IMG/VR virus record: IMGVR_UViG_3300035660_000040
Location: 1-37,237 of that record
DNA length: 37,237 nucleotides
Source: a virus
Strand: one strand, 5' to 3'
Below are positions 8,688-34,984 of the stretch, piece by piece. Made by a program: the position numbers and the translations under genes. Numbering within the stretch: the stretch's first letter is position 1; each line of letters opens with the position of its first letter. The notes under the pieces are model-generated. The model worked only from the letters and a program-made list of their open reading frames with translations. It had not been told where the DNA came from and made no database searches.

Positions 8688-9052
8688 TATTGAAGCAACC
8701 TCCGTTGCAAGTCTGAAAGTTTAATCATCATTTCATTGAAGTTCACCCATACGAAGGGCATCCAATACGGCTGTGCACGCTGATTAACGGTGCCGAACTC
8801 TGGGAACCCGGCGTAAGGGGATGAAACGACGCCCTCCACCATCAAGTTCTCTTCATCAATGAAGCCTATTCTTATGGTGTCTGCGAGAGCCCACCCACGC
8901 GCCTCTGTCTCCGTTCGCGCGGCATCCACCGTTTTCTGCATGGCGTCAAGTATGATGCGCATGATTTCAGATTTGAACGTCTCATTTACTTTATTGAGCG
9001 CGCCGACTAACTCCGTCACGCCGCTAAGTTTTACCTGAATCACTTTCCACAT
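8687..9052 (-). CDS. HK97 gp10-like head-tail/tail-completion protein
   Basis: 121 aa. A central helix (MRIILDAMQKTVDAARTETEARG) is followed by SPYAGFPEFGTVNQRAQPYWMPFV, which matches the ya..vEfGT..q.aqPfm.pa signature of the HK97 gp10 family. Members usually sit at the head-tail interface or tail end. The gene starts at an ATG (9052) that overlaps the end of the frameshifted chaperone frame by 29 nt. The location is odd: in most siphoviruses gp10-like genes come before the tail tube, whereas here the gene lies between chaperone and tape measure. Confidence 0.7.
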   Translation of the reverse strand: MWKVIQVKLSGVTELVGALNKVNETFKSEIMRIILDAMQKTVDAARTETEARGWALADTIRIGFIDEENLMVEGVVSSPYAGFPEFGTVNQRAQPYWMPFVWVNFNEMMIKLSDLQRRLLQ

Positions 9053-9538
9053 CTTCCGTTATGAGTATTAACTCGATTATGACGTCTCGAAAGAGCATCT
9101 GATTTATCTCTTCAAACGTCCAACCGTTCTTTCTTGCGAGATTATGCCTAACAATAAAGGGGTTAAACGTGGTCTTCGTCGGTTTTGATATGATGTTGAT
9201 GACTCTTTGAATTCTCTTTGTGTTGACCTTTACGCCTCTGTATCTGAGGATGGTTTCGGCGATGACACTAAAGGGACCGCGTTAAGGGTTATTGACGCTA
9301 TGTACAATTCATTCCCTTCCGCTTCCGTTAAGTTCTCAAACTCTGCGTCCGTCATTTTCGGCTCCACAATCATTCTGCGTAGTCTTGCGAATCTGCTTTT
9401 TTTGACGCTTATCTTTGACATAAGCGTCTCTTTGTCAATAGTCGTCGCTTCATCCAAAACGTCGCAGACCTCACCGAACGTCAACTCTCTGAATTTGTAC
9501 GTCTTTCCACTCTTCGTCTTGTATTCTTTTGGCTCCAT
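9024..9538 (-). CDS. Tail assembly chaperone long form (G-T type) made by -1 ribosomal frameshift
   Basis: The zero frame (9538 to 9230) ends after ...NAVPLVSSPKPSSDTEA. The overlapping -1 frame is open from just before the site to a TAG at 9024-9026 and has no start codon of its own near its beginning. At 9269-9275 the minus strand reads C CCT TTA in the zero frame, a canonical X XXY YYZ slippery heptamer. It lies after the last -1 stop (a TAA a few codons upstream). Slippage gives ...NAVPL-SVIAETILRYRG...ending in ESDSGKT, about 171 aa. The extension contains FNPFIVRHNLARKNGWTFEEINQM, a helical segment like T-domains that contact the tape measure. Lambda G/GT is the known precedent. Confidence 0.8.
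9230..9538 (-). CDS. Tail assembly chaperone short form (G-type)
   Basis: 102 aa, ATG at 9538 with AGGAGATCACG upstream. The start, MEPKEYKTKSGKTYKFRELTFGEVCDVLDEA, is the compact alpha/beta opening typical of chaperones in which a short beta hairpin leads into helices. It lies directly downstream of the tail tube gene (12-bp gap) and upstream of the tape measure, the standard place for this family. The slippery site is near codon 90, so most ribosomes would make this short form and a minority the extended one. Assignment is by position, length and the frameshift arrangement rather than a catalytic motif. Confidence 0.75.
   Translation of the reverse strand: MEPKEYKTKSGKTYKFRELTFGEVCDVLDEATTIDKETLMSKISVKKSRFARLRRMIVEPKMTDAEFENLTEAEGNELYIASITLNAVPLVSSPKPSSDTEA
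9269..9275 (-). promoter_or_regulatory. -1 programmed frameshift slippery heptamer CCCTTTA
   Basis: Read on the minus strand in the zero frame as GTC CCT TTA, so both the P- and A-site tRNAs can re-pair in the -1 frame (CCC TTT). It falls within the roughly 65-nt overlap between the chaperone zero frame and the open -1 frame. This is where frameshift sites of phage tail chaperones lie. Confidence 0.8.
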
Positions 9539-17370: not shown

Positions 17371-17506
17371 ACTTTTCACCATGATGATAAAACTGAGTTA
17401 ATTGGAAAGGTGTGATTCTTGTTTTTTCCACAAACCAAACGCTTACGTCTTCCACTATGTTGACGCTGCAAGAAACCTTTACAGTCTGTTTTTGGGCATT
17501 TTGGGT

Positions 17507-17893
17507 TCATGTCTCATACTCCCAATCAATTATCGTGACAAGAAAGTCCGCCGCCAGATGGGCAACTCTGCGGCAATCGTAAATGTAAATTTGCTTCAGC
17601 GCATCAAAAAGCTGCTGAACAGTCTTGAACTCCGTGCCCGTCAAGTCTTCTTTCTTAATGTCATTGAGCTTCATCAATCTGACGTTCGTGATCTTAACGG
17701 AGGTTAAGGGCATGCAGAAAGACGTCAGAAGGACACGATCTCCGGGCCTAAACTCTTTTGCTTTCTTGTCGCCCAAACGAAAGCTGCGAGTTTTCACCCT
17801 TGTATGAATTAGAGCACAATATTCTGGAAAGAAATCCAGTGTTTTTATGGGAAGTTCACGAATCTGCAGCGGAGCGCTTTCTTCAGTCTGCAA
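17507..17893 (-). CDS. ASCH-domain protein
   Basis: 128 aa. It has the ASCH/PUA-like beta-barrel pattern: LPIKTLDFFPEYCALIHTRVKTRSFRLGDKKAKEFRPGDRVLLTSF, where the helix is followed by k.kT.t.R and then GD.v.l, and later LTSVKITNVRLMKL. ASCH domains bind RNA or modified nucleosides, and one subgroup (YqfB) hydrolyses N4-acetylcytidine. Start by TTG (17893) 2 nt after the stop of the coiled-coil gene, so translation is probably by reinitiation, since no Shine-Dalgarno is seen. A second ASCH protein is encoded at 20324-20596. Its place among structural genes suggests a moron. Confidence 0.7.
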   Translation of the reverse strand: MQTEESAPLQIRELPIKTLDFFPEYCALIHTRVKTRSFRLGDKKAKEFRPGDRVLLTSFCMPLTSVKITNVRLMKLNDIKKEDLTGTEFKTVQQLFDALKQIYIYDCRRVAHLAADFLVTIIDWEYET

Positions 17894-17895
17894 GT

Positions 17896-18045
17896 CTAGT
17901 ACACATCGAGCAATTTGTTTAGTTGTGTAATTCTATTCTTCGTGGACTCAATTTCCTCTCTTATGAGAACCTTAATCTGGGCAATCTCATTTTTGAGAGA
18001 GGAGACTTTTTCATTTCTCTTTTTTAATTCAGACTCGTAATCCAT
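17896..18045 (-). CDS. 49-aa coiled-coil protein
   Basis: The ATG at 18045 opens a 50-codon frame ending at TAG 17896-17898, 2 nt before the ASCH gene. The product is almost wholly a charged coiled coil (SELKKRNEKVSSLKNEIAQIK then EEIESTKNRITQLNKLL) with heptad leucines/isoleucines. It is too short for a scaffold. It might be a partner of the membrane protein upstream, in the way lysis accessory proteins pair with holins; this is only inference. A leader with three hairpins lies immediately upstream. Confidence 0.6.
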   Translation of the reverse strand: MDYESELKKRNEKVSSLKNEIAQIKVLIREEIESTKNRITQLNKLLDVY

Positions 18046-18054
18046 CTGTTTTAC

Positions 18055-18126
18055 ACCCGGTTCCCAAAAAGAGGGAACTTCGTGGGCTTTTCACCCATTT
18101 GCCGACTTGCACGGCTCATCAGGGGT
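18055..18126 (-). ncRNA. Structured leader: three consecutive hairpins, hammerhead-like core
   Basis: On the minus strand, three stem-loops lie in a row: GCCG/CGGC (18101-18115), TGGG/CCCA (18083-18097) and GTTCCC/GGGAAC (18060-18078), ending about 15 nt before the 49-aa gene's ATG. They are preceded by CTGATGA (18116-18122). CGAA lies between hairpins two and three, and ACCC/GGGT could close the whole element. That is the skeleton of a hammerhead ribozyme (CUGAUGA, stem II, GAA, stem III, C at the cleavage position, stem I). Stem II is irregular, however, and residue 15.1 is G instead of A. A plain regulatory or terminator structure is just as possible. Confidence 0.45.
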
Positions 18127-18133
18127 TTGTCTT

Positions 18134-18595
18134 CTACGCAGGTTTTGGTTTCTTGAACGCCGTTGGGAAGACTTGAGCCAAGACGGAGGCTAACAAATCA
18201 AGGAAGAATATGATGGCTGTTCCAATTATCCTCCATTCAGCCGTCGGTGCCATGTTGAATACTATCGCTATTGTGCCAAAGTAGTATGATGCGGTTTGGT
18301 AGAATTTGTTGATGTTGTATATCTCAGCAACTCCGTCAGCTTGGGCTCCGTATTTCGCAGTCAGGAACCCAAAGACGTTACGCAGCCAAATGAACCCTAC
18401 CGATACCGAACCACCGAGAAGAGTTGTCTTCAAGAAAACGACAATTCCGTTGAACGGATAGGGAACAGAAGCTACGTTAATGACCTCTAACGCAGTGTAA
18501 ACTCCAATTGTCACACCCGCCAATATCAAAAGTATTGTGGTGATGACAAGAAGTGCAGCTGCGAAGGTCTTAGGCTTCCAAAACAATTCACTCAT
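18134..18595 (-). CDS. Integral membrane protein (possible holin or virion membrane protein)
   Basis: About 153 aa, starting at the ATG of MSELFWKP (18595) with GGAGGTG upstream. Three or four hydrophobic helices are visible: FAAALLVITTILLILAGVTIGVYTAL, a middle segment around FLKTTLLGGSVSVGFIWL, YYFGTIAIVFNMA, and IIGTAIIFFLDLLASVLAQV. The C-terminus is basic (FKKPKPA). Multi-span size and genomic place between portal and protease allow a holin or a host membrane modifier. No family assigned. RNA-like stem structures lie on both sides of the gene, which may control its expression separately from the capsid genes. Confidence 0.65.
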   Translation of the reverse strand: MSELFWKPKTFAAALLVITTILLILAGVTIGVYTALEVINVASVPYPFNGIVVFLKTTLLGGSVSVGFIWLRNVFGFLTAKYGAQADGVAEIYNINKFYQTASYYFGTIAIVFNMAPTAEWRIIGTAIIFFLDLLASVLAQVFPTAFKKPKPA

Positions 18596-18646
18596 TTTGT
18601 CTCGCACCTCCGTCTACATTTTTATGATTAAACAGAAAAATTTGAG

Positions 18647-18724
18647 ACGCTGCGGGAATGAAGCCCAAAAGTCTTGGGAGGGAGAAAGGAGAAGCCTTCA
18701 TTCTTGCACTCCCGCAGTTTCGTC
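18647..18724 (-). ncRNA. Long conserved-looking stem structure at end of portal gene
   Basis: On the minus strand, GACG/CGTC outer pairs, then CTGCGGG with CCCGCAG (7 bp), then AATGAAG with CTTCATT (7 bp), enclose a small hairpin CCCAA/TTGGG. The 5' arm is the last codons of the portal gene (stop at 18698) and the 3' arm is intergenic, about 50 nt before the membrane protein's start. Such an interrupted stem could act as a transcription attenuator, RNA processing site or translational switch between portal and membrane protein. Confidence 0.5.
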
Positions 18725-19978
18725 CGTCTTACTTTGTGCTGGCGTCGCGCCCGTTTCGAGTTCCTTTTTCTCTAAGTTGACGCCCATTCCCATGAGAATA
18801 TCGCGCCACTCCGGCGTTGTGATGCCTTTAAGTTCCCATGTTTTCTCAAGAATCGGCAAGAGAACTTCAGATTTCGGCTTGTCGCCAAGTTGCCAATTCA
18901 TACGAACCTGAGCTTTACTGGGATCAAGACCCTCCTCCTTGACCCACGCGTCAAAAATCCACGTTTCAGTCATTCTCTTCAAGTAACGCTGAGAGGAGAC
19001 AACTCGTCGCTCTCCCATCATCATTGCCGCGTTTGCGGCTGCCTCGGTAAAGTTCGCTCCGCCGCCTAAGATCAACTTTGGATACGGCGTTCCGAGAGCA
19101 AGATAGAATGAGTTCCAAATCATTTCAGCGTAGAAGTCAAGCCCGCGCATACGTTCTGGGATAAGAGAGAGCACTTTAGCGTCAGGTTTGTTGATCGCCA
19201 TTCGTGCGTTCTTGAGTGTCTGAATCTTCGTGTGATATTCTTTCAGTTTATCATCAGAAAGCCCGGGCAAAACCCATAACTCGTTGTATGAGGAGAACTT
19301 CTCAATCTGCTCCATCATTGCCTTCTGAATTCTGTTCTTAATCTCTGCGAATGCAGGGCGAGTTCCGCCTTCCACACTCATCGCTGTGCAGAGAGCTTGC
19401 AGAATTCCCACGCCAATAGGTGACCGCCCGATGCGATTGTAACAGAAAGGAATTATTGTGTCTGCAGCATAAGAGGCGCTTTCCGTTTGAACTGCTTTGA
19501 GACTCAAAGCCATCTCATCAAATTCAAAAGACTGAATCGTGCCCGGTAAAATACGAGCAAGAGTTTCGATCTTTACAGGGTTTTTCTTCCAGAGAAAAGA
19601 GTTTCCATATCCAGTTAAGTCTCTACTCACTTCTTGAAGTAACTCATCTATTCCGAAAAACTTGCACTTATCATCAACAACTTCTTTTGCCGTTCGCCCG
19701 TCTTGAGTTACGGTCTTATATTCTTGATTCATTGTGACCTGAAAGCCGTTGCCTGTAATGACGTCTGCGATAAAGTCAATTGCTGAGCGAATGTCCGGGT
19801 CGCCCATGAGTGTCTTATTCATATCTTGAAAGGTCGGGTCTGGGTAAACTTTGCCTCCGTAAGACTTCTCAGGGATAACGAGACTCCCGGGACCCTTGCC
19901 CGCTAGTGTCTTTAATCCTTCAAAAAGTTTCTGAAGATATGCGCTCACTCGGTTACTTCCTTTCGGGCTCATTTCCAC
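18698..19978 (-). CDS. Portal protein (HK97/SPP1-type)
   Basis: About 426 aa from GTG 19978, or 424 from the ATG two codons on. Typical portal sequence runs: DPTFQDMNKTLMGDPDIRSAIDFIADVITGNGFQV (N-terminal), LLQEVSRDLTGYGNSFLWKKN, IPFCYNRIGRSPIGVGILQALCTA (the y.....g.spi.....l.. signature), and NSFYLALGTPYPKLILGGGANFTEAAANA followed by a helical crown. It forms the dodecameric DNA entry vertex and docks the terminase. A TATA-like GCATAAAG centred about 29 nt before the GTG suggests a promoter with almost no leader, so this may be the first gene of the late structural transcript. Confidence 0.85.
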   Translation of the reverse strand: MEMSPKGSNRVSAYLQKLFEGLKTLAGKGPGSLVIPEKSYGGKVYPDPTFQDMNKTLMGDPDIRSAIDFIADVITGNGFQVTMNQEYKTVTQDGRTAKEVVDDKCKFFGIDELLQEVSRDLTGYGNSFLWKKNPVKIETLARILPGTIQSFEFDEMALSLKAVQTESASYAADTIIPFCYNRIGRSPIGVGILQALCTAMSVEGGTRPAFAEIKNRIQKAMMEQIEKFSSYNELWVLPGLSDDKLKEYHTKIQTLKNARMAINKPDAKVLSLIPERMRGLDFYAEMIWNSFYLALGTPYPKLILGGGANFTEAAANAAMMMGERRVVSSQRYLKRMTETWIFDAWVKEEGLDPSKAQVRMNWQLGDKPKSEVLLPILEKTWELKGITTPEWRDILMGMGVNLEKKELETGATPAQSKTDETAGVQE

Positions 19979-20002
19979 TTTCGCGCGTTGCGCCAGTAAC
20001 TT

Positions 20003-20012
20003 TCTTTATGCA
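20003..20012 (-). promoter_or_regulatory. TATA-like promoter of the portal/structural unit
   Basis: On the minus strand TGCATAAAG is centred near 20007, about 29 nt before the portal GTG (19978). This is the usual archaeal TATA-to-start spacing for a very short or absent leader. It faces away from the plus-strand unit that starts at 20158, so the 179-bp gap is a divergent promoter region. Confidence 0.4.
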
Positions 20013-20084
20013 CTTTTAGAAGAAGTAAGAACGATAATTCTAAGGCGCATTTTGAGTTCTACTAACGTAAGGCGCGAGAGAACC

Positions 20085-20093
20085 TTTATTAAA
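20085..20093 (+). promoter_or_regulatory. TATA-like promoter of the plus-strand unit
   Basis: TTTATTAAA, followed by more A/T-rich boxes up to 20119, lies 65-70 nt before the ATG at 20158. TTGGAG stands 9 nt before that ATG. The arrangement fits an archaeal promoter with a short leader for the only two plus-strand genes. Confidence 0.4.
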
Positions 20094-20157
20094 GACGACG
20101 TAATAAAGAAAGTTAATAACCTAGTTGCATTGTGAGTTTCAGTTTGGAGACTTAAAG

Positions 20158-20313
20158 ATGCCCACCTGCAAGAAGTGCAACAAAGACGCTGACTGGGTAA
20201 GCAAAACAGGATATTGCATGCGTTGCGCCCGCAGAGCATTACTACCTTATTTCGCATCACTCTTCATCTTCATCGTGTTGCTCATTGTAAGTTGGAAGGT
20301 CTTCTTTACGTGA
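20158..20313 (+). CDS. 51-aa zinc-ribbon membrane protein
   Basis: The ATG at 20158 has GGAG at good spacing. The N-terminal half carries two CxxC pairs (CKKC at residues 4-7 and CMRC at about 21-24), a compact treble-clef or ribbon. The C-terminal half is one transmembrane helix (LLPYFASLFIFIVLLIVSWKVFF). Single-span zinc-ribbon proteins are widespread in archaea; function unknown. With the ASCH gene it forms the only plus-strand unit, opposite to all surrounding viral genes and placed exactly between the early and late halves. This is a common site for cargo (moron) genes. Confidence 0.65.
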   Translation: MPTCKKCNKDADWVSKTGYCMRCARRALLPYFASLFIFIVLLIVSWKVFFT

Positions 20314-20323
20314 GCGCGAGCCC

Positions 20324-20596
20324 ATGTTCAAGCGCCGTGCCCGAGCAGTTAGCTTTTACGCACGCCGAGGCGTCTATGCTGCCGTTTTGAGCGGGGCAAA
20401 GAACGTTGAGTATAAGGCGGACACGATCTTCTGGCGCTCAAGACTACGGGGCAAAAATCCGCCCGTAACGGCGGTCTTCATCTGCGGGCGAAAGGTGTTA
20501 AGGCGGCGAATACAAAAAATCAGTTATGAGCGAACGCCGTCCGGACTTCAAGAAATCAAGACGCCGATGTGCTTCGCGTTGCATCTTGAAAGTTGA
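20324..20596 (+). CDS. Small ASCH-domain protein
   Basis: 90 aa. The opening, SFYARRGVYAAVLSGAKNVEYKADTIFWRSRLRG, follows the ASCH pattern s...ey...vlsG.K.vEyR...fw, and PVTAVFICGRKVLRRRIQKISYERTPSG supplies the next strands. ASCH proteins recognise RNA or modified bases. In some mobile elements they accompany antiviral or toxin genes. Starts 11 nt after the zinc-ribbon gene with only a weak ribosome site (GAGCGCGAG). It is not a close copy of the other ASCH protein (17507-17893), so the two were probably acquired separately. Confidence 0.6.
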   Translation: MFKRRARAVSFYARRGVYAAVLSGAKNVEYKADTIFWRSRLRGKNPPVTAVFICGRKVLRRRIQKISYERTPSGLQEIKTPMCFALHLES

Positions 20597-20680
20597 ACCG
20601 CACATTCAAAAAGAGTATCGTGATCTTCCTTCGTTTCATAAGAGTATTAACATAGCACGACATCTTCACTCTAGCAAGGG

Positions 20681-20690
20681 CTTTTTTTGA
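20681..20690 (+). terminator. T-rich terminator after the plus-strand unit
   Basis: GGGCTTTTTTTG follows 85 nt after the ASCH stop. A run of seven T residues on the coding strand is a standard archaeal termination signal and would end the two-gene plus-strand transcript. Confidence 0.45.
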
Positions 20691-20902
20691 AAAAACTTCT
20701 AGAATCCGCGAAAGCTGTGTGGTCATAATAAGTATTATCGCCACGCGAGGCAACATCGCGTAAGCGCTCGCGTACTCATGCACTTACGTAACCCTTACAA
20801 CTTTTTTTGTATCGCTTCCGAGAAAAAGCAACGGGCTTGATAAAATTCTCTATGACCACAGAAGCACAAAAACTTGTTCAGAATAAAACAAGCTCCTTTC
20901 AA

Positions 20903-20949
20903 GACGAGAGATTACGGGACACTGGGCTTTTTGCAAACCCAATGTCGTC
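20903..20949 (-). ncRNA. Stem-loop element, copy 1
   Basis: On the minus strand the outer stem is GACGA/TCGTC, and the inner stem ACATTGGG/CCCAGTGT is fully paired with one G-U wobble around an A/T-rich loop. An 11-nt bulge lies on the 3' side. The last 27 nt on the plus strand align without gaps to copy 2 at 21120-21164, sharing TGGGCTT and CCCARTGTCGTC. The pairing is better on the minus strand, so the transcript is probably from that strand. Confidence 0.5.
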
Positions 20950-21119
20950 ATTAAGAAGACGTTGAAAGCAGCACAACCTCTCATACAGATCACTATCTAT
21001 TTTAGTAGTAGAGTGAGCGATATCGGCGCATTTTTCTGGCGTCTGACTGCTTAGGGTATAGCACACTCAACTTCTGAAACAGAGAGTAAACGGCACATAA
21101 GAGCTACGTTCGTTCAAGA

Positions 21120-21164
21120 GACGACGTTAGGCGAAGCTGGGCTTCAAAAAACCCCAGTGTCGTC
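21120..21164 (-). ncRNA. Stem-loop element, copy 2
   Basis: Outer stem GACGAC/GTCGTC (6 bp), inner stem CTGGG/CCCAG around an A-rich loop, and a bulge of about 11 nt on one side. It has the same layout as copy 1, 217 bp away. The one change within the shared stem (A to G) keeps pairing. It lies 18 nt beyond the end of the 48-aa gene, so it could be a 3' structure of that transcript. Confidence 0.5.
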
Positions 21165-21181
21165 AAGTTGATGCGTGCGCT

Positions 21182-21328
21182 TTACGGGTAAATCTCCACG
21201 GCAGATTCACCTATCTTAAGCCCGTTTAAAGTCCGGGATTCAACTCTGTCATCAAAATGAACTCTGTAATGCTTGACGGGCTTGTCTCCTCCAATGAATA
21301 TGCCTAATATTTTGTTTTTATTCGTCAT
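21182..21328 (-). CDS. 48-aa hypothetical protein
   Basis: The ATG at 21328 overlaps the preceding TGA (ATGA), and the frame ends at TAA 21182-21184. The product contains ILGIFIGGDKPVKHYRVHFDD, ESRTLNGLKIGESAVEIYP: alternating strands, like a small five-stranded barrel. Polar and hydrophobic residues alternate well and translational coupling is clear. No family recognised. It is the last gene of the minus-strand early block before the non-coding region. Confidence 0.55.
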   Translation of the reverse strand: MTNKNKILGIFIGGDKPVKHYRVHFDDRVESRTLNGLKIGESAVEIYP

Positions 21329-21483
21329 GGAATGCTTAACTTCCTGAGCGTAAATCGTCTTTCGTCTTCCAAGAATCTTCTTCGTTCATCAATCTCTTTC
21401 GCTGAGCGGCAATCGTCGCACAGCCATTGCCCTTTCTCAAAATGCAAGTTCTCTTTCGCGCCGCAGATCGCACAATGAGCCAT
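21325..21483 (-). CDS. 52-aa zinc-ribbon protein
   Basis: The ATG at 21483 overlaps the upstream stop (TAATG). The sequence MAHCAICGAKENLHF...WLCDDCRSAKEIDERRRF has two CxxC pairs (Cys4/Cys7 and Cys22/Cys25), which make a zinc ribbon like the DNA- or RNA-binding small proteins of phages and archaeal viruses. A charged helix follows. It is one of many small zinc proteins between 21 and 25 kb. Confidence 0.65.
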   Translation of the reverse strand: MAHCAICGAKENLHFEKGQWLCDDCRSAKEIDERRRFLEDERRFTLRKLSIP

Positions 21484-21752
21484 TAATCTTCCTCTTCCTC
21501 AGGCTTAATGCCCGGCTTCCAGAGCTTGCGGGCGGTTGTGGGCTGGCGCTGCTTGAAGTGCTCTGAATGAGAGAACTTTGTCACGCGGCGCTTGTTAATC
21601 GCGGCGATTCTCTCTTGTCTTGCAACTCTTTCAATTTCCATTCTTACTTTCTGAACGCTCGCGCCTGACACGATGCCCTTTCTGGGCTCTGAGAAATCTT
21701 CAGGTTGAGGCGTTGGTGGTTCTGTACCCGCAGGTTTAGCCCGCACAATCAT
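21483..21752 (-). CDS. 89-aa basic hypothetical protein
   Basis: ATG at 21752 with AAGGA close upstream. The first 30 residues are rich in proline and glutamate (GTEPPTPQPEDFSEPRKG), and a basic helix follows (VQKVRMEIERVARQERIAAINKRRV). The end is basic, then acidic (KPGIKPEEEED). It is probably disordered except for the helix. Two tandem stem-loops in the leader (21786-21826) suggest control of this gene. Function unknown; nucleic-acid binding is possible from its charge. Confidence 0.55.
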   Translation of the reverse strand: MIVRAKPAGTEPPTPQPEDFSEPRKGIVSGASVQKVRMEIERVARQERIAAINKRRVTKFSHSEHFKQRQPTTARKLWKPGIKPEEEED

Positions 21753-21785
21753 TGTTTCCTTCGGGGATGTGGGCTTGTGACGCTT

Positions 21786-21826
21786 GAGAAAAGCGCTTAT
21801 TCTCTTGAGTAAGCCCGTTCTTACTC
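21786..21826 (-). promoter_or_regulatory. Two tandem hairpins in the leader of the 89-aa gene
   Basis: On the minus strand GAGTAAG-AACGGG-CTTACTC (7-bp perfect stem, 21807-21826) is directly followed by GAGAA...TTCTC (21786-21804). They start at the stop codon of the upstream zinc protein and end about 34 nt before the next start codon. They could be an attenuator or a processing site. Confidence 0.45.
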
Positions 21827-22244
21827 ACCTCATAGAGCGGTAAATGATGTCGATTAACTCAATGCCCTCGCGTTCACAGTCGCGTATGATCTGCAAGAGT
21901 TTCCGCGGCGGGTAGAGGCGTTCGCAGTTCCCGCAGAGCTTCTTGACGCACACGCGATGAATCCAAACGTGCCCCATACCCGGAGCCGCCAATCGCCCTT
22001 TGCAGTCGCACTTATTCGCCGTGAGCCACCAGACCCTTCCGCAGTGTTCACAGGCGCCATAAATGAAGCCCATACTCTGAAGTTTTTTAACGGCGGCTTT
22101 GAGCGTCTCCTTACTGAACATCTCTGCGGCTTTCTCTTCGCCTGACATTAAGATGATGAGCGCACAGGTCTGAGTTTCCGTTATATACCCGATCGCCACG
22201 CTCATGCCCTCCTTAATGCCCTGAACTTCGCGAGCGCTCTGCAA
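21825..22244 (-). CDS. Zinc-finger protein, 139 aa
   Basis: N-terminal alpha/beta part (VAIGYITETQTCALIILMSGEEKAAEMFSKETLKAAVKKLQ), then a zinc-rich region: CEHCGRVWWLTANKCDCKGRL...VWIHRVCVKKLCGNCERLYPP with at least seven cysteines, enough for two zinc sites. A C-terminal helix follows. The frame starts at a TTG (22244), but the ATG at 22205 (AAGGAGG just before it) may be used. Such proteins can be transcription regulators or DNA-binding accessory factors; nothing more specific is visible. A TATA-like CTCTATTATG lies about 37 nt upstream of the TTG. Confidence 0.6.
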   Translation of the reverse strand: MQSAREVQGIKEGMSVAIGYITETQTCALIILMSGEEKAAEMFSKETLKAAVKKLQSMGFIYGACEHCGRVWWLTANKCDCKGRLAAPGMGHVWIHRVCVKKLCGNCERLYPPRKLLQIIRDCEREGIELIDIIYRSMR

Positions 22245-22337
22245 TCCTGTGGAAAGAAGTTCGTGGTCAGGCGGAGTTCTGCATAATAGAGATAATAACG
22301 AATTTCATCTCTTATTCTCATCTTACGCACCCGATCA

Positions 22338-22375
22338 CAAAAAAAGAAGAGTGATTTCGCCCGAATTTCACGGGC
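22338..22375 (-). terminator. Hairpin plus T-run terminator
   Basis: On the minus strand GCCCG-TGAAATT-CGGGC (22359-22375) is followed by CTCTTCTTTTTTTG. It lies just after the stop of the AbrB-like gene (22394). With the promoter at 22845-22853 it delimits a one-gene transcription unit. Confidence 0.6.
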
Positions 22376-22393
22376 TTTACGAGGGTGTTACGC

Positions 22394-22822
22394 TTACTCT
22401 TTCTTTCGCGAGTCAGGAATTTTCACCGTAACGGTCTGAGCGTCCAAGTCTGCGCTCTCAATGATGATCTTATGAGCGACGCCCTTCGTTAGGCCCAGTG
22501 CAGCCATAACGTCTTTGCCGAAGTGTAGGAACCCGTACTTGTTAATCTCGCCTGCAAATGGGAAAGTTGCAGACGCGGGCTCTACTTGCTCAGGGACCTC
22601 TGGAGCGCCCGGTGGAGCGGCGGACTCTGTTCGTTTCTTCTTAACCATAATTTCACCCCCCTTTTTTTCTTCAACTTTCTCTAAGCGTAAGCATGACGCG
22701 TGCGCCTTTCGCCCGTCTGGCAAGTTTCTAAGTTCTTGACCAGATTTTATGGCTTCTGAGCAAAAAGCGCACACGTAATGCCCGCTTCCCGCTTTTTCTC
22801 TCTTCTGTGGCACGCAAATCAC
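22394..22822 (-). CDS. Zinc-finger protein with C-terminal AbrB-like domain
   Basis: 142 aa from a GTG (22822). N-terminus: CAFC...LPDGRKAHASCLRLEK, a treble-clef/LIM-like zinc finger. A flexible proline-rich linker (SAAPPGAPEVPEQVEPASA) follows, and the C-terminal part INKYGFLHFGKDVMAALGLTKGVAHKIIIE...TVTVKI has the swapped-hairpin AbrB pattern (i...G.v.ip..v...lgl..G). The GTG is about 27 nt from an ATTTAAAT TATA box, so the transcript may be leaderless. An internal ATG (MVKKKRTE) with GGGGGTG upstream could give a shorter AbrB-only form. It is likely a transcription regulator of the virus. Confidence 0.65.
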   Translation of the reverse strand: MICVPQKREKAGSGHYVCAFCSEAIKSGQELRNLPDGRKAHASCLRLEKVEEKKGGEIMVKKKRTESAAPPGAPEVPEQVEPASATFPFAGEINKYGFLHFGKDVMAALGLTKGVAHKIIIESADLDAQTVTVKIPDSRKKE

Positions 22823-22844
22823 AAAAGAGACTTAGACAGTGCTC

Positions 22845-22853
22845 TATTTAAAT
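22845..22853 (-). promoter_or_regulatory. TATA box for the zinc-finger/AbrB-like gene
   Basis: The palindromic ATTTAAAT core, centred near 22849, lies 27 nt before the GTG at 22822. This is the typical distance from an archaeal TATA box to the transcription start, so the mRNA would begin at or near the start codon. Confidence 0.55.
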
Positions 22854-22858
22854 GTCAA

Positions 22859-23062
22859 TTACAAGTTTTTCAATGATGGTCTGAAAAGAAACGCTTTGCG
22901 ATCGCATTTCACAAGAATATACTTCAAAAGCGTTGCAATGAGTAAATCGTGGCAGCTTTGCGTTCCTTTGCAACTTTCACAAATGCTTTTATCTGCGGCA
23001 AACGGCAACTCAATAAGTAGTCCGCGGCGTTCTGAAACGGCTTTGAGGTAATACTTGCGCAT
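22859..23062 (-). CDS. 67-aa small protein with a four-cysteine cluster
   Basis: ATG at 23062 (a TTG three codons earlier is possible). The sequence KYYLKAVSERRGLLIELPFAADKSICESCKGTQSC has a CESC pair with another Cys 8 residues on; it continues with HDLLIATLLKYILVKCDRKAF. It may bind zinc or form disulphides. TTTTTAT, near 23093-23099, could be its TATA box. No Shine-Dalgarno is seen, so it may be translated from a nearly leaderless mRNA. Family unknown. Confidence 0.5.
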   Translation of the reverse strand: MRKYYLKAVSERRGLLIELPFAADKSICESCKGTQSCHDLLIATLLKYILVKCDRKAFLFRPSLKNL

Positions 23063-23110
23063 GAACGTCAAGAGACAAGATGCCCGGAGCGATAAAAAGG
23101 TTAGAGTATC

Positions 23111-23395
23111 TTATGCCCCGGCAAGTTTTACGCCTACGATCGCGGCGATTATTACGAAAGTCCATTCAAGAACTTTGAAGAGTGCGTTCCGCGCCCAAGA
23201 CGCCCAAGCTGAATCTTCCTCTTCGCGTTTCGGCTTAGGCATCTTGAACTTGCCGCTCAGATAATCCTCAACTGAGCGTAAGCGAGCGTCAATCTTCTCA
23301 ATGCGTTTCAGAAGGTTAATCATTGAATTCACGACGGCGTCATTGTCTTCCCCATTTCCACCTCTCTTTTTCTTACTTCTTTGAAATCTTCTCAT
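23111..23395 (-). CDS. Small coiled-coil membrane protein
   Basis: 94 aa. Its ATG overlaps the terminase stop by 4 nt or fewer (ATGA-type coupling). Residues 1-20 are basic (RRFQRSKKKRGGNG), the middle is a coiled coil (VVNSMINLLKRIEKIDARLRSVEDYLSG), and the C-terminus is one membrane helix (LEWTFVIIAAIVGVKLAGA). This architecture matches single-span holin-like or tail-anchored phage proteins such as XhlA (haemolysin XhlA family). Coupling to the terminase is unusual for a lysis gene. Confidence 0.6.
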   Translation of the reverse strand: MRRFQRSKKKRGGNGEDNDAVVNSMINLLKRIEKIDARLRSVEDYLSGKFKMPKPKREEEDSAWASWARNALFKVLEWTFVIIAAIVGVKLAGA

Positions 23396-24849
23396 ATCAA
23401 CAATACACCTCCCGAAGTCCTTTCAATCGTTAAGGCATAAGTTAAAAGTGCAAGCGTATCGCTCAAATCATCCGTGCTGCCCGGGCCCGCTTGAATGCGG
23501 AAACGATCTGCAAGCACGATGCGCTGGAGATATTTGAATTCCTCTCGCATCTCATCATTGTCCTGAAAAACGATCTTTTCTGGGCCCTGCGTAACTCGTT
23601 CAATGAGGTTCTGATAAATCTTCATATCCGTATTCGTCCCGTAAACGAAGGGTCTTGCGGGTAAGCCCAAGTTCTGGAATCTCTGAAGCGTCGGCGTGAT
23701 TAATCGCTCATCACCTAAGATATCCGTTACTCTGTAACGCTCACAATGATCTTGAACGTAGTCTTCAATATCCACAATGTTGATAAGCTCTCCTTTCTGC
23801 GGGTGCCAGACCTTCATTATGTCCACGACGACCTTATCGTTCGCTTCAAGATGCCCCATTGAGAATGCAAAGTTATCATGCTTAAGTCCGGCGTCAATGG
23901 CGATAACGTAATTTTTCTCCTTGTCTCTCGGCGGAACGTAGAACTGCTTTATGCAGCGTTCAACAATGCGCATATCAAAGAACGGGCTTACGACGTCTGC
24001 GAACTCTGCGCCGTATTCTCTCTTGAAACCCCAAGGGTCTCTCTGTTCCTCTTTTCGCAAGAAACTGTGATCTCGCGGGTAAAGCGGGTTAAGCACCCAA
24101 GTCGGCGCTTGAAATACAGCGCGAAAATTGTGTCGCCCTTGAGATGTAAGTCGTTGCAGAATCCACGGCTGAATTGGCGTTCCCGTCTCAAACATTTCAT
24201 ACGCTGCTCCGCTTCGCCCGGCGGGTGTACTGATTCCGATAAAGCGTCCGTCTTTGCCGAACGGGAGGAGACGCGGCATAAAGGCGTTAACGCACTGCTG
24301 CCCGCTTAAGTTGCCTTTCGTGTCTATGAAGTGGCAGAACTCATCGAATATCAACGTATAAATTTGATATCCGCGACCTCCACGACTGCTGCTTCCCTGA
24401 GCGCGAGTAATAATGCCGTCCGTGAATTCAATTTCATTCGAGCGTTCTGTGATGATGTAATCCGAAAGATACCAAGAGTTCTGCGCGAACCCAAGAATGT
24501 AATTGAGAATAACGCCTTTTGCAATGTCTTCTTTCGGCGCTATGTTCATGCAATAGATGTTCGTGCCGGGATTCAGATTATACTTGGTGCACGGGTCTTC
24601 GTTTTGAAGTAGAAGATAAACTCGCCAGAGCGTAAGTTCCGCCATTAACGTTGACTTGCCGCCCTTGCTCCCGCACATTACAAGCGTTTCAGGATATTTC
24701 GCAACTGCGCGCATTATCGCTTTCTGAATCTCGCTGGGGTCCCACTTAAGATTGAGAATCCACTTATGAAAAGCCACAGGGTCTATAAGCGTGGCTTCAT
24801 ACTCGATTTTGTTGAATCGCTTAAGGACTCTTCTACGTCGTGGATTCAA
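23392..24849 (-). CDS. terL: Terminase large subunit
   Basis: 485 aa packaging motor. ATPase motifs: Walker A GSKGGKST (residues 60-67), Walker B LIFDE (166-170), and the coupling motif STP (208-210) in GISTPAGRSGAAYEMF. Nuclease (RNase H-like) acids: Asp319 in VIAIDAG, Asp380 in ILGDER and Asp460/461/464 in STDDLSD. All main motifs are therefore intact. It drives DNA into the prohead and cuts concatemers. The small subunit lies upstream (25328-25702), separated by two small genes. The portal lies 3.4 kb downstream instead of next to it, an uncommon separation. Start ATG at 24849, 1 nt after the preceding zinc protein's stop. Confidence 0.93.
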   Translation of the reverse strand: MNPRRRRVLKRFNKIEYEATLIDPVAFHKWILNLKWDPSEIQKAIMRAVAKYPETLVMCGSKGGKSTLMAELTLWRVYLLLQNEDPCTKYNLNPGTNIYCMNIAPKEDIAKGVILNYILGFAQNSWYLSDYIITERSNEIEFTDGIITRAQGSSSRGGRGYQIYTLIFDEFCHFIDTKGNLSGQQCVNAFMPRLLPFGKDGRFIGISTPAGRSGAAYEMFETGTPIQPWILQRLTSQGRHNFRAVFQAPTWVLNPLYPRDHSFLRKEEQRDPWGFKREYGAEFADVVSPFFDMRIVERCIKQFYVPPRDKEKNYVIAIDAGLKHDNFAFSMGHLEANDKVVVDIMKVWHPQKGELINIVDIEDYVQDHCERYRVTDILGDERLITPTLQRFQNLGLPARPFVYGTNTDMKIYQNLIERVTQGPEKIVFQDNDEMREEFKYLQRIVLADRFRIQAGPGSTDDLSDTLALLTYALTIERTSGGVLLI

Positions 24850-24850
24850 C

Positions 24851-25066
24851 TTAAAACAACTTCTTTTGCTCTGTTGCTTTCTCTCTTGATTTTGTTAAAC
24901 TTCTTTTGCATTCCATGCAATTATCAGGAGAGTTATCGTTTCCCGTCTCAAGCTCTCCAAAGAACAGCCAAGACATACAGAGAGACCTTACGCCGACGAA
25001 GTAATGCGCCTTTCTTGAATTACTCGGAAAACCCCAACCCTCTCTCTTCTTATCTTCTCCAGACAT
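24851..25066 (-). CDS. Small zinc-binding phage-type protein
   Basis: 71 aa from the ATG of MSGEDKKREG (25066), overlapping the upstream gene's end by 17 nt. The part HYFVGVRSLCMSWLFFGELE...DNSPDNCMECKRSL matches a small metal-binding domain common in virus genomes (vHyf..grSLCgrw...dnC..C...l): His at about 30, Cys at about 38, then CxxC. Longer upstream frames lack a good start. It lies between the small and large terminase genes. Confidence 0.65.
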   Translation of the reverse strand: MSGEDKKREGWGFPSNSRKAHYFVGVRSLCMSWLFFGELETGNDNSPDNCMECKRSLTKSREKATEQKKLF

Positions 25067-25325
25067 ATTTTCGCATCCACCTGAATTTCCAATATAATGA
25101 GACGACGCCAAGACACAGCAGAAACGCCTCAAACGCGAACGTAAACCATGCGACCGTGATGAAGCCCACAACGGAGATTAACCCGTTCCCGACTATATGC
25201 AGAATTATCCCTTCAAGACTTGTGGACTCCATGTTATTGCGGCTCTCCCAATGTCTCTGTAATCTTGCAACTTCGCTGATGAAGAAACAAAAAGAGGCAA
25301 TATTGAGTAGTAATGTGAAATCCAC
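25050..25325 (-). CDS. Membrane protein, two to three spans
   Basis: 91 aa, ATG at 25325, overlapping the end of the small terminase gene's reading context by 2 nt. Hydrophobic segments: FTLLLNIASFCFFISEV (N-terminal), LEGIILHIVGNGLISVVGFITVAWFTFAFEAFLLCLGVVSLYW (two adjacent spans), then the basic end KFRWMRKYVWRR. Family not identified. The location next to packaging genes and the size permit a holin-like or host-membrane role; neither is shown. Confidence 0.6.
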   Translation of the reverse strand: MDFTLLLNIASFCFFISEVARLQRHWESRNNMESTSLEGIILHIVGNGLISVVGFITVAWFTFAFEAFLLCLGVVSLYWKFRWMRKYVWRR

Positions 25326-25327
25326 GC

Positions 25328-25702
25328 TTATTCCTCAGTCAATTTCTCCAACGGACTCTGCTTTTTCGGCTTTTCCTTTCGACGTTCTCTGCTGATGTAT
25401 GAGATTCCCATTCTCGTCAAATACAAAACGAAGGTTCGTCTAAGCCCGTCAAGTTCGTTTTTCTCAGCAATTATCGCCGTATTCGCAAAGACTCTTTCAT
25501 TAAGTCTTCGCATTCGTAACTCCATGAAGATCAATTCTCCGAGTAGAAGCTCCATCGCGGGCTCTTTCAGATACGGGTAAGCCTTAAGATACGTTTCTTT
25601 GCGCTTTTTGAAGTATTCTTTCTCTTTATCATCAAGTAACGTCTGCAAATACTCTGGCGGATTACAGTCTGTCTCACTTCTTTCCAATCTTTTTACCTCC
25701 AA
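25328..25702 (-). CDS. terS: Terminase small subunit (P27-like)
   Basis: 124 aa. Helix-rich, with DDKEKEYFKKRKETYLKAYPYLKEPAMELLLGELIFMELRMRRLNERVF followed by LDGLRRTFVLYLTRMGISYISRERRKEKPKKQ. The order (helix containing LL.EL...E...., then LR....yl..lGis...R..) matches P27-family small terminase subunits, which recognise DNA and regulate the large subunit. ATG 25702 overlaps the preceding gene by 10 nt. Its position 0.5 kb upstream of the large subunit supports the assignment. Confidence 0.7.
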   Translation of the reverse strand: MEVKRLERSETDCNPPEYLQTLLDDKEKEYFKKRKETYLKAYPYLKEPAMELLLGELIFMELRMRRLNERVFANTAIIAEKNELDGLRRTFVLYLTRMGISYISRERRKEKPKKQSPLEKLTEE

Positions 25703-26640
25703 AAGTTCGTTTCCAAATCATTATCTTCATCATCTTCAATTCCCGGATGTTCGATTACGCAGACGCTCATCCGCGGGGAAAACGTCACAAGTTCTCTGGC
25801 GACTCGCTCAACTTTCACCTCCCAATTTGTGAGAGCGGCGCCCTCAAGCTCTATCGGCTCCGTTGCCCAGTGCATCAACTCATGAACAATACTGATGTTT
25901 AGATCGAACACCAAGAAGTCAATGAATTTCTCAAAGTTTATGCCCCACTTCTTCCAACACTGCTTTGTCCAAATGTCTGTGATAATGTTGATTTCGTCCG
26001 TTTCTGGGTCATAAAGCGCCACGGCGGGGAAATCTTTGCTTAGGATAAATGAGATGTCTCTCTTCGTTAGGCGCACTGCTCTTGTGAGCTTACGGAATCT
26101 TAGCGGGCTATTACTGAAGAGTTCTCTTAAATCCCAAACGCCGCCATTACGTTGTATTCTCAAATTGGCGTGTTTTTCAATACTCTCCCAAGTGGCAGAC
26201 TCATATCCCGCGCTTTCATTCTTGACTTTGAACCAATTCTCCGGGCGAAGTGCGAAAAGCTGATGCTTGCGATCTTCTGTGCTTCTATGAAGTATAAGGA
26301 GCCAGTAAATTCCACCAGCTTTCTCGATAACTCGCATTGCGCTTTCTTGATGCTCTTTAACATTCTTGAATGCGTATCGTTCTCTTACGCTTGACTTGCA
26401 CTCAATGATGTAGAATTGCCCCTTATTGCAAGCCATGAAGTCGCCGACCTGCTTAAAGCAGAAGAGATTGGGATTAATTGCAACGTAAGTTTTGTAGTCC
26501 CATATACGCTGGAACCAAAAATTGCCGCTGTTTTGCTCTCTGATGGCGGTAAGGGCGTTTCTTGTCATTTGTTCAAAGAGTTTGCCCTGCGTGGACTTGC
26601 CCATTCCGCGACGCATTCTAACGAACATTATTAAGGTCAT
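25693..26640 (-). CDS. RecU-like nuclease fused to HExxH metallopeptidase-like domain
   Basis: 315 aa (start at ATG 26640; ATGs at codons 5, 9 and 13 are alternatives). Residues 15-120: STQGKLFEQ, GDFMACNKGQFYIIECKSS (Asp67, Glu80-x-Lys82), KEHQESAMRVIEKAGGIYWLLIL. This is the PD-(D/E)XK layout of RecU/Holliday-junction resolvase-like enzymes. Residues of about 185-280 form a second domain with ISIVHELMHWATEPIELE, that is, His253-Glu254-x-x-His257 with acidic residues following (Glu263/266) as a possible third zinc ligand. Resolving branched DNA before packaging fits the position just before the terminase genes. What the peptidase-like domain does (SprT-like crosslink repair, or ImmA-like cleavage of a regulator) is unknown. 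Confidence 0.75.
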   Translation of the reverse strand: MTLIMFVRMRRGMGKSTQGKLFEQMTRNALTAIREQNSGNFWFQRIWDYKTYVAINPNLFCFKQVGDFMACNKGQFYIIECKSSVRERYAFKNVKEHQESAMRVIEKAGGIYWLLILHRSTEDRKHQLFALRPENWFKVKNESAGYESATWESIEKHANLRIQRNGGVWDLRELFSNSPLRFRKLTRAVRLTKRDISFILSKDFPAVALYDPETDEINIITDIWTKQCWKKWGINFEKFIDFLVFDLNISIVHELMHWATEPIELEGAALTNWEVKVERVARELVTFSPRMSVCVIEHPGIEDDEDNDLETNFWR

Positions 26641-27332
26641 TTTTTCAACCTCTTCGGAATCTCATCATAGTAATAAAGAAACATCGCGTTTGCCGCGACG
26701 TGAAGCATGTGATTCAATGAGGATTCAAGATCATGAACTTCTCCGCGGTGATACGCAAGAAGATGTCTGTATAAGGCGGCGATTATTCTCCTCTTTTCAA
26801 GATCGCGTTTCCAATTCTCAAGCCCGTATTTCTGGGCGCCCATCGTTAAGACTCGCGCTAATCCCTCAATGAACTCGGGCACGATTAAGTCAACCATGAT
26901 CTTGCCCTGATCAAACTTCTTTCCTTTCTCACTCTTCAACGTCTTTGTGATTCTTCGAAATCGAATTTCACTCTGTGCATTAATTGAGGGTCTCTCACCA
27001 TACAGTAAATCTTCGAAAGTTATCACTGGCTTCTGAATTAACTCTGCGAAGCTCTTTTCCCAGTTGACGCCGATGGAGACGTTCTGAGGGTCATAAGCGA
27101 ATATGTCACATCTTGCAATTATCGCAAGTTCCGCGAGTGCGATTTCTGGGTGCGTATAGCCCGGCGGAAAGTCGTATAACGCATCAAATACAAGATGTGG
27201 GATTATCAGAATTAGATCGTTAGTCTGCTCGTAGATTTTCTGAGAAAGCGCCTTCATCTCTTCTGTTCTTGTTATGGGCCCGTCGCTGTACGGATAACTG
27301 CAATACACTAAGAAGAATTTCTTCATTTTCAT
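26637..27332 (-). CDS. Deoxyribosyltransferase-like + dATP/dGTP diphosphohydrolase-like fusion
   Basis: 231 aa. Residues 5-110 (VYCSYPYSDGPITRTEEMKAL, LIIPHLVFDALYDFPPGY, IIARCDIFAYDPQNVSIGVNWEKSFAELIQKPVI) match the DUF4406/nucleoside deoxyribosyltransferase-like fold, with Glu92 in the catalytic area. Residues of about 136-225 (KKFDQGKIMVDLIVPEFIEGLARVLTMGAQKYGLENW...IIAALYRHLLAYHRGEVHDLESSLNHMLHVAAN) match the DUF5664 dATP/dGTP diphosphohydrolase domain of phages, an all-alpha relative of MazG. The enzyme would act on deoxynucleotides or cyclic or modified bases. ATGA overlaps with both neighbours tie it to the P-loop kinase and the nuclease fusion. Confidence 0.75.
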   Translation of the reverse strand: MKMKKFFLVYCSYPYSDGPITRTEEMKALSQKIYEQTNDLILIIPHLVFDALYDFPPGYTHPEIALAELAIIARCDIFAYDPQNVSIGVNWEKSFAELIQKPVITFEDLLYGERPSINAQSEIRFRRITKTLKSEKGKKFDQGKIMVDLIVPEFIEGLARVLTMGAQKYGLENWKRDLEKRRIIAALYRHLLAYHRGEVHDLESSLNHMLHVAANAMFLYYYDEIPKRLKK

Positions 27333-27904
27333 GCACCTAATAACTCGATTATTTTCTTTGTGACGAATTTTGTGCGGGCTGACTTACTCTTTCCTTTAAC
27401 TTCAATGACGTTAGGATCATTGAGAAAAAGTCTCATAAAGTGGCTGTTGATCTCTTTTCTCTCTTCCTCACTGCACGTTCTATCAGCGTCAGAGACTAAT
27501 GGGAGCGGGGTAAAGAGAAAGAACTTGGTGTATGGTGAGATTTTCTGCCACGCACGACAAATCTCTTGAATATATGTTAATACTTCACCCGCACGCCACA
27601 ACTGCTTAACTGAAAGATTCTTGCGTTCTACGCCGTGTTCAAAGAAAGGAATCTCATCAAAGACGCTGCGATCTGTTATAACGTGTTCCCACTTGCGTTC
27701 AGCTTGATGCTCCGCTAAAATCTGCTGAAGCAAAATCCAGTTTGCCGTGTCAAATCTCCCATCTTTTAGTGGATAAGGACAGCTTCGCGCAACTTCTTGT
27801 ATAAGTGTAAAGTTCGTAAGCCCGAGTTTCTTCAACGTCGCGCCTACGTGCCAAAGCGTTGTGGTCTTTCCAGAGCATTGTGCGCCTATGAATGCGATCT
27901 TCAC
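27329..27904 (-). CDS. P-loop NTPase, AAA_28/NadR-like nucleotide kinase
   Basis: 191 aa. Walker A GAQCSGKTT (residues 7-15), then EVARSCPYPL, a DR motif in HVITDRSVFDEIPFF, and DADRTCSEEERKEINSHFMRLFL, the lid-like arginine region. These are the features of the AAA_28 (NadR kinase/thymidylate-kinase-like) family. Substrate unknown; given the following fused nucleotide enzyme, phosphorylation of a deoxynucleotide or nicotinamide riboside is likely. The family is common in large phages. Its end overlaps the next gene by 4 nt (ATGA). Confidence 0.75.
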   Translation of the reverse strand: MKIAFIGAQCSGKTTTLWHVGATLKKLGLTNFTLIQEVARSCPYPLKDGRFDTANWILLQQILAEHQAERKWEHVITDRSVFDEIPFFEHGVERKNLSVKQLWRAGEVLTYIQEICRAWQKISPYTKFFLFTPLPLVSDADRTCSEEERKEINSHFMRLFLNDPNVIEVKGKSKSARTKFVTKKIIELLGA

Positions 27905-28134
27905 TTTGAGACACCTCTTCTTGCGATGTATTTCTTCGCCGCGTCTCTGTTCCCGCTTAAGAGACTCTGCAGATTCTCAAGTAAGATGGCGATCGTGTGC
28001 CCGCAGACAGGGCAAGTAATTCCAAGATAGTTCTGCCCGTCTATCTCCAGAACTTCCGTATGCACCTCGATTGTCTTTATCTCCGACGTTTCCGTTTCAA
28101 CGTGGCGAAAGAGAATGTATCCTCTTTTTGTCAA
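27901..28134 (-). CDS. 77-aa single CxxC protein
   Basis: It overlaps both neighbours by 4 nt (ATGA), the usual coupling here. The N-terminus is beta-rich (GYILFRHVETETSEIKTIEVHTEVLEIDG) and contains LGITCPVCGHTIAILLENLQSLL with one CPVC pair (residues of about 41-44). A basic helix ends the protein. A dimer could bind zinc. It is placed directly downstream of DNA polymerase, so a replication accessory is plausible, but nothing proves it. Confidence 0.6.
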   Translation of the reverse strand: MTKRGYILFRHVETETSEIKTIEVHTEVLEIDGQNYLGITCPVCGHTIAILLENLQSLLSGNRDAAKKYIARRGVSK

Positions 28135-32517: not shown

Positions 32518-33955
32518 CGTTTAACCACTCCTTATCGAAAACTAAGTATATCTTGGGCTGCGTCATGACCCCGGCGGTTCGTATCATGTGGATTATCGTG
32601 TCTCTGGGAGCGTTCGCGATAGCGTTCTTGTAATCAACGTTGCTTGCAAAACGTTCTGCGGAGACGACTTTGCGGAAGATGAGATGTGTTGCAAGCATTA
32701 TGAGGACTTTTCTTATCTGCTCAAAGGTGTCCGGGTGTTCGTTCAGAAAGCGTGTTATGTATCCTTCACTACTCATGTATCGAACGTCAAAGCCCAAACT
32801 TTTCACAAAGGCGTTGAACTTCGCAATAGGCTCCTCTAACGCTTTCTCTTCAATTTTTCGCATCCCCGCCTTCTCAAAGAACGGGTTATACTTCGCCATG
32901 ACTGCAACGGTTTCAGTGTAACGGGTCGGCGCTTGCGGCAAAGATTCTCGCACGATCTTCTGTCCAAGCCCGATTGTGCGATATTTCGGGTGCACGACGA
33001 CGCGGCTGATTATCGTGAGAATTTGGTTAAGTTCCGCCACCTTTATGGGTCTGTTAAAGAATCTCTTTCTCCCGAAGACTGCAAGAGGCGGGCATGAGTA
33101 AACAATGACTCCGCAAAGTTCCCGTTCTGAGCGCTCATTTTGTCTTATGAGGTTAAAGATCGCTTTTGGCGGAGGGGCATAGTGAGAACGATAATGAAAA
33201 GGCGCCAAGATTTTCCAATCAGCATACGTGCCCTTTTCTAAGTGCATCTCTGAGATTAAGCTGCACTCTTTCGCTGCGACGTTCGTGTTATATGTGATCT
33301 TGATTTCCTGTCCGTAACGCTTGTCAATGCGCACGCTGGGGTTAAGATCAGCGTTCAAATCTAAGTTGCACGTGGCGACAAGAACCGTTATGCCTAACTG
33401 TCTCGCGATCTTCTGAACGTTGAAGCTCACGATCTTCGCCGTGTCCCTGTCAAGCGTGCTGCAGAACTCATCACAGACCCAGACTTTCTTCTTGCTCTCG
33501 ATCAATTTCGCGAGTCTGTAACGGTATTTTTGCCCGTCGCTAAGTTCTGGGAACTTGCGTAGAAAGAGAAACGCATCATTTAGGCCTACGGCGCTCAAAA
33601 TGCGCAGAGCTTCATCAATTGTGGCTTCAACACTGTCCACGAGCGGCTTGTTTATGTCAATTTCAAGTTCATTTATATCCGCGACGTCATTGATGAAGGT
33701 CTTTTTGAACTCTCTCAGAATTGAGCTTTTCCCGCTGCCGCTATCTCCGGTGATATAGACAACGTCGCCCTCGTTTACGTCAATGTCTGTGTCGCAGATT
33801 ATGAATTGCTTTTCGCCGTCAATACCGAGACCAAAAGCCTCAGCGGTTGCGATCGTTCTCTCCGTAAGCTCTACGGCGGTCTTGTAGATTATTGAGACAT
33901 GATACTTACGCAGTCGCTTGACTGCACGAAACCTCAAAATCTTCATCTTTTCCAT
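32495..33955 (-). CDS. ABC-ATPase fused to GNAT acetyltransferase (COG2401-like)
   Basis: 486 aa. ABC part: Walker A GDSGSGKSS (residues 70-78), signature LSDGQ (138-142), Walker B VWVCDEF (158-164), all intact, but no membrane domain. GNAT part (about 250-390): VIVYSCPPLAVF, then SRVVVHPKYRTIGLGQKIVRESL (the V.P..R..GiG acetyl-CoA motif) and NPFFEKAGM. A helical C-terminus of about 90 residues follows. COG2401 proteins with this fusion occur in many archaea and some viruses, with the biochemical role unproved. Nucleic-acid or protein modification coupled to ATP binding is likely. The start at 33955 (or ATG 33946) overlaps the HNH gene by about 50 nt. Confidence 0.85.
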   Translation of the reverse strand: MEKMKILRFRAVKRLRKYHVSIIYKTAVELTERTIATAEAFGLGIDGEKQFIICDTDIDVNEGDVVYITGDSGSGKSSILREFKKTFINDVADINELEIDINKPLVDSVEATIDEALRILSAVGLNDAFLFLRKFPELSDGQKYRYRLAKLIESKKKVWVCDEFCSTLDRDTAKIVSFNVQKIARQLGITVLVATCNLDLNADLNPSVRIDKRYGQEIKITYNTNVAAKECSLISEMHLEKGTYADWKILAPFHYRSHYAPPPKAIFNLIRQNERSERELCGVIVYSCPPLAVFGRKRFFNRPIKVAELNQILTIISRVVVHPKYRTIGLGQKIVRESLPQAPTRYTETVAVMAKYNPFFEKAGMRKIEEKALEEPIAKFNAFVKSLGFDVRYMSSEGYITRFLNEHPDTFEQIRKVLIMLATHLIFRKVVSAERFASNVDYKNAIANAPRDTIIHMIRTAGVMTQPKIYLVFDKEWLNVAKESAT

Positions 33956-34432: not shown

Positions 34433-34434
34433 GT

Positions 34435-34930: not shown

Positions 34931-34956
34931 ATCTGATCATAAGATCACGAAGCGCG

Positions 34957-34970
34957 GTCTATATTTATGA
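34957..34970 (-). promoter_or_regulatory. TATA-like promoter of the replication unit
   Basis: CATAAATAT on the minus strand, centred near 34964, is about 34 nt before the GTG at 34930 and directly downstream of the T-rich terminator of the recombinase unit. Confidence 0.45.
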
Positions 34971-34984
34971 GTTAATTAAAATGT

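Follow-up and report, generated by a model that had tools for sequence, protein, structure and literature searches.

The uncultured tailed virus IMGVR_UViG_3300035660_000040 (positions 1–37,237 of the record, called the window here) appears to rely on programmed −1 frameshifting to produce a tail assembly chaperone of the lambda G/GT type, a reading to which we assign a probability of about 0.88. The case made for it from the sequence lies in a combination of features, namely a conserved slippery site, a switch of the conserved reading frame at that site, the missing start of the T frame, and the order of the surrounding genes. The feature is real and very probably functional, and would be ordinary in kind, although the virus that carries it is unusually diverged.

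Gene order and reading frames

Nearly all plausible genes of the 37,237-base record lie on the minus strand. The head genes (portal, HK97-type capsid, and terminase) are followed by an adaptor-like gene, and then by the tail tube, G, T, gp10-like and tape-measure-like genes (Table 1), which places G-T between the tail tube and tape measure genes, with the one gp10-like gene intervening before the latter. The 358-aa protein is assigned as a tape measure mainly because of its homologue in a related virus, IMGVR_UViG_3300022223_000282 (G002, locus L009), which matches the PHROG 58 tape measure (E = 3.3e-6); G-T lies upstream of this gene in both viruses. The position of the gp10-like (Neck1/tail completion) gene between T and the tape measure is unusual, and is also common to both: in the window its first 29 bases overlap the end of T, and a homologue with 31% identity occupies the same place in G002 (L009 11678–12043), where it overlaps the end of T as well.

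Table 1. Tail-module features of the window surrounding the candidate frameshift site.
Feature	Position	Strand	Evidence or remark
Major tail tube protein, 308 aa	9551–10477	minus	Pfam PF18906 Phage_tube_2, E = 5.7e-8 (over cut-off); PHROG 290, E = 1.1e-12
G ORF, 102 aa, predicted to encode the short tail assembly chaperone	9538–9230	minus	52% identity to G002 homologue
Candidate slippery heptamer C CCT TTA	9275–9269	minus	Phase X XXY YYZ; same codon in G002
T domain, −1 frame, coordinates between stops (contributes to the predicted fusion from 9269)	9281–9024	minus	48% identity to G002
HK97-gp10-like tail completion/Neck1 protein	9052–8687	minus	PHROG 5, E = 8.8e-9; Pfam PF04883, E = 0.003 (below cut-off)
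Short tape-measure-like protein, 358 aa	8687–7611	minus	39% identity to G002 protein; own match weak, E = 0.0049

G begins with an ATG that is preceded by a GAGGAG ribosome-binding motif, and ends with a stop at 9232–9230. It is overlapped by a second ORF, T, which lies in the −1 frame and has no start of its own near its 5′ end; the last stop of this frame is a TAA at 9284–9282, after which T stays open for 85 codons until a TAG at 9026–9024, with its first ATG, GTG or TTG only at residue 62. An earlier note on this DNA had placed the heptamer at 9269–9275 in the correct frame, past the last −1-frame stop and inside the overlap, and had described the −1 frame as one without its own start that encodes a plausible T domain of about 80 residues, and each of these points was confirmed. 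A −1 shift at the heptamer would yield a fusion of 171 aa, comprising 90 residues through the shift site and 81 from T, with the predicted junction peptide ...AVPLSVIAETILR... / ...NAVPLSVIAETILR....

Searches of Pfam, PHROGs and NCBIfam gave no significant match of G or T to a chaperone family. AlphaFold models built from two sequences were of low confidence (mean pLDDT of 43 and 62), and a structure search with the low-confidence T model returned no significant match. Assignment to the G/GT type is one of organisation and not of sequence similarity, and G-T of the window would be best explained as a new, highly diverged member of these chaperones.

Conservation of the site and of the −1 frame

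The heptamer, which reads GTC CCT TTA in the G frame, is the sole in-phase heptamer within the 17-codon overlap of the window. When such an overlap was redrawn with synonymous codons, keeping the peptide and codon usage of the window, at least one in-phase heptamer was present in 10% of the redraws, and the site in the window by itself therefore proves little. Comparison with G002 lifts the heptamer well above chance, as independent synonymous draws for the two viruses put an in-phase heptamer at matching positions in 2 of 20,000 cases, a figure that ignores shared descent. Third-position identity between the window and G002 is 43–48%, from which we estimate that, given the site in the window, passive inheritance of its three unchanged third positions would have a chance of roughly 0.1.

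G002 was the only homologue of G-T found, and conservation of the site is thus a statement about two genomes. Their fused G-T proteins are ∼51% identical, and the two records about 60% identical in DNA. Synonymous sites are near saturation, yet the heptamer is kept in G002 (L009 12269–12263) and is spanned by an identical 9-base run, TCCCTTTAG. T of G002 is again in the −1 frame, with no start until residue 74 of 99. The earlier note had suggested searching related viruses for the heptamer and the −1 frame, and had named loss of the heptamer beside a T kept with its own start as a pattern that would speak against it; in the one homologue found this pattern was not seen, and G002 retains both elements. 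The two viruses thus have homologous G, T, gp10-like and tape-measure genes in the same order, with the same heptamer. G002 differs in that its G has a longer tail past the site, and in that its tail tube gene falls outside the contig, G and T occupying the last ∼520 bases of a contig that terminates exactly at the G start codon; its tape-measure homologue is likewise near one contig end. A second in-phase canonical heptamer, T TTA AAC, is also present in G002 (L009 12281–12275, minus strand), 12 nt upstream of CCCTTTA, and is absent from the window. The exact shift point in G002 is uncertain because of it.

The conserved frame switches at the heptamer, from 0 upstream to −1 downstream. In an ungapped alignment of the window with G002, the 60 bases upstream encode identical residues at 11/19 positions in frame 0 vs. 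5/20 in the −1 frame, whereas in the overlap downstream the counts are 3/12 and 8/12, respectively; G beyond the site can therefore vary, whereas T is constrained. Across the 81 aligned residues of T, pN is 0.31 and pS is 0.78, and the other two frames are broken by stops. The −1 frame of T is under purifying selection as a protein.

It is on this evidence that the idea that T is a gene in its own right, translated from a non-standard start codon or by ribosomes that re-initiate after the stop of G, with the heptamer a coincidence, has to be weighed. Candidate codons do exist in the T frame (ATC at 9263, ATC at 9251 and ATT at 9212), and the 10% chance of a single in-phase heptamer in the overlap is not small, but neither virus has an ATG, GTG or TTG in T before the late residues given above, and the heptamer stands at the same codon in both. 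Conservation of the −1 frame, moreover, sets in at the heptamer itself, before the G stop is reached, and any separate start of T would therefore have to lie within its first few codons in both viruses. We consider a separate T gene very unlikely.

Slightly less probable still is that the T frame is reached by transcriptional slippage or by a shift that is not a simple −1, in which case the heptamer would not be a ribosomal slip site. A +2 shift would arrive in the same frame equally well, and the direction of the shift does vary among tail chaperones, as is seen from phage D6E (GU568037), where a weak match to G (E = 0.2) has its T in the +1/−2 frame and lies directly before the tape measure. 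The runs of three in CCCTTT are, however, too short for the usual case of transcriptional slippage, and the heptamer, which is conserved, is an exact match to the tandem −1 slip pattern. The D6E locus (L017 3001–3400) consists of two unannotated, tail-chaperone-like ORFs flanked by structural genes and the tape measure gene; as a supporting homologue of G-T it was set aside, given the weakness of the match and the other direction of its T, and it serves as context only. The least likely explanation, and one close to refuted, is that G and T form one unbroken gene with the frame broken by an assembly or sequencing error, since, whilst both records are metagenome assemblies, they are independent and at about 60% DNA identity have the same −1 relation, G runs on past the heptamer in an open 0 frame for 39 nt in the window and 69 nt in G002, and it is very unlikely that an identical error arose at one base in both. 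Programmed −1 frameshifting in the tail chaperone, as proposed in the earlier note, is well supported in comparison, with a conserved site, a conserved −1 frame that lacks a start, and a fitting gene order.

Proposed mechanism

Under programmed −1 frameshifting, the majority of ribosomes would translate G and stop at 9230, while a minority would shift by one base towards the 5′ end at C CCT TTA, with re-pairing from CCU to CCC in the P-site and from UUA to UUU in the A-site, and would continue translation in the −1 frame as far as 9024 to give a G-T fusion of ∼171 aa. By analogy with lambda, G would coat the tape-measure protein, the T portion of the fusion would recruit the tail tube protein, and the ratio of G to G-T would thus matter for assembly of the short tail. 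The sequence shows the reading frames, the in-phase heptamer kept in a second, diverged virus, selection on the −1 frame and the order of the genes; the slippage, its rate and these chaperone roles are what we infer.

A convincing stimulatory RNA structure was not found, the folding z over the 60 nt downstream being −1.9 in the window and −0.6 in G002. A small hairpin common to both viruses (CCUC/GAGG and CCUU/AAGG) begins 18–19 nt past the heptamer, within codons for conserved residues, and is no classical stimulator because it lies too far from the heptamer. There was no Shine-Dalgarno-like motif in the 10–14 nt upstream of the heptamer, and no match in Rfam.

Comparison with known systems

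The lambda heptamer is GGGAAAG, as opposed to CCCTTTA in the window, and G-T of the window shares no detectable sequence similarity with that of lambda; unlike in lambda, the HK97-gp10-like gene separates T from the tape measure. In the G/GT tail assembly chaperone of lambda (Xu et al., 2004, as cited in PMC7911831), the binding partner of G is the tape measure and that of T is the tail tube protein (PMC5009743). Frameshifting of G-T by −1 in archaeal tailed viruses has been proposed since 2013, for HVTV-1, HCTV-1, HCTV-2 and HCTV-5 (PMC8211752; PMC5009743) and later for Hardycor1, and these haloarchaeal viruses are like the window in having a predicted −1 shift in the G-T gene. They differ in having known haloarchaeal hosts, and in their heptamers, which are GGGAAAC in HCTV-1, AAAAAAC in HCTV-2 and GGGAAAG in HCTV-5 (PMC5009743; PMC8211752), and GGGAAAT in Hardycor1, with −1 likewise predicted for a Natronolimnobius relative (PMC7911831). 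Shifts of +1 are proposed for HSTV-2 (PMC5009743; PMC8211752), and for the HF1 group without the usual slip site (PMC7230728).

The heptamer of the window has itself been proposed elsewhere, as the −1 slip site C-CCU-UUA, with a pseudoknot, in the CP/RdRp overlap of giardiavirus, and the authors of one study dispute it for their own strains (PMC8230311); this is the same heptamer, but in a eukaryotic RNA virus and an unrelated protein. What is new here is the heptamer CCCTTTA, which differs from the heptamers that the part of the literature covered here gives for archaeal viruses, together with the virus group that carries it.

Related genomes

Relatives of the window were found through IMG/VR searches with the polymerase and portal, which returned G001, G002 and G003, whereas single-protein searches of IMG/VR with G, the tail tube protein and the terminase returned none. 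Profiles of G-T, the tape measure and the terminase gave no further close relative, and the virus group had no close match in the searched collections. No homologue of G-T or of the tape measure was found in G001 or G003, both of which are fragments. These two share the portal, capsid, polymerase and terminase with the window, and have a different tail module (L003 6475–7515 in G001; L006 8414–9434, minus strand, in G003), consisting of proteins of 145–151 aa and 189–190 aa followed by a very long protein. Whole tail modules have apparently been exchanged.

The relatives also carry genes that resemble, by eye and from their translations, those of the 7-deazaguanine (preQ0) pathway, namely QueC, QueD, QueE, FolE and a transglycosylase-like protein (L002 4252–7856 and L006 24–4043), which may suggest modified DNA in these viruses. 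In the window, a 486-aa protein at 32495–33955 combines an ABC-type ATPase (Pfam ABC_tran) with a GNAT acetyltransferase-like region (Acetyltransf_10, below cut-off), and adjoins the Prim-Pol gene.

Host and implications

The description of the virus as archaeal in the earlier note is plausible, but a link to a host was not found. Exact-short-pattern scans of 84,980 bacterial and archaeal genomes found no relatives of the terminase or polymerase, an absence that is weak evidence; the portal had no match in phages or plasmids, and the terminase and polymerase had only distant matches, in bacterial phages. Weak hints come from two proteins whose best matches are archaeal models but score far below cut-off, namely the family B DNA polymerase (archaeal-type Pol I) and the integrase (archaeal XerA), and from the origin of G001 in dataset 3300002966, from the Obsidian Pool hot spring in Yellowstone at 56°C (PMC5864196). 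Scans of 17500–37237 for sigma-70 promoters and terminators gave no excess over shuffles, by which the host is not decided. In our judgement an archaeal host is somewhat the likelier.

The further suggestion that the site newly points to this mechanism on archaeal ribosomes is not borne out, both in view of the haloarchaeal viruses discussed above and as −1 slippage has already been shown for fucA1, at ∼10% in Saccharolobus solfataricus in vitro translation, a gene given in a 2021 review as the one experimentally demonstrated archaeal −1 case (PMC8211752); a sequence by itself, moreover, says nothing about ribosomes. More tentatively, and at somewhat under an even chance, the host may be a non-halophilic and possibly thermophilic archaeon, whose ribosomes would slip efficiently by −1 at C CCU UUA and would need little RNA structure, if any, to do so, and G-T frameshifting would reach beyond the haloarchaeal viruses.

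The finding would bring an uncultured and deeply diverged virus group within the range of a conserved regulatory device, and it supplies a specific candidate slip site. An archaeal host other than a halophile would also make it a further case in the small set of archaeal-ribosome frameshift candidates.
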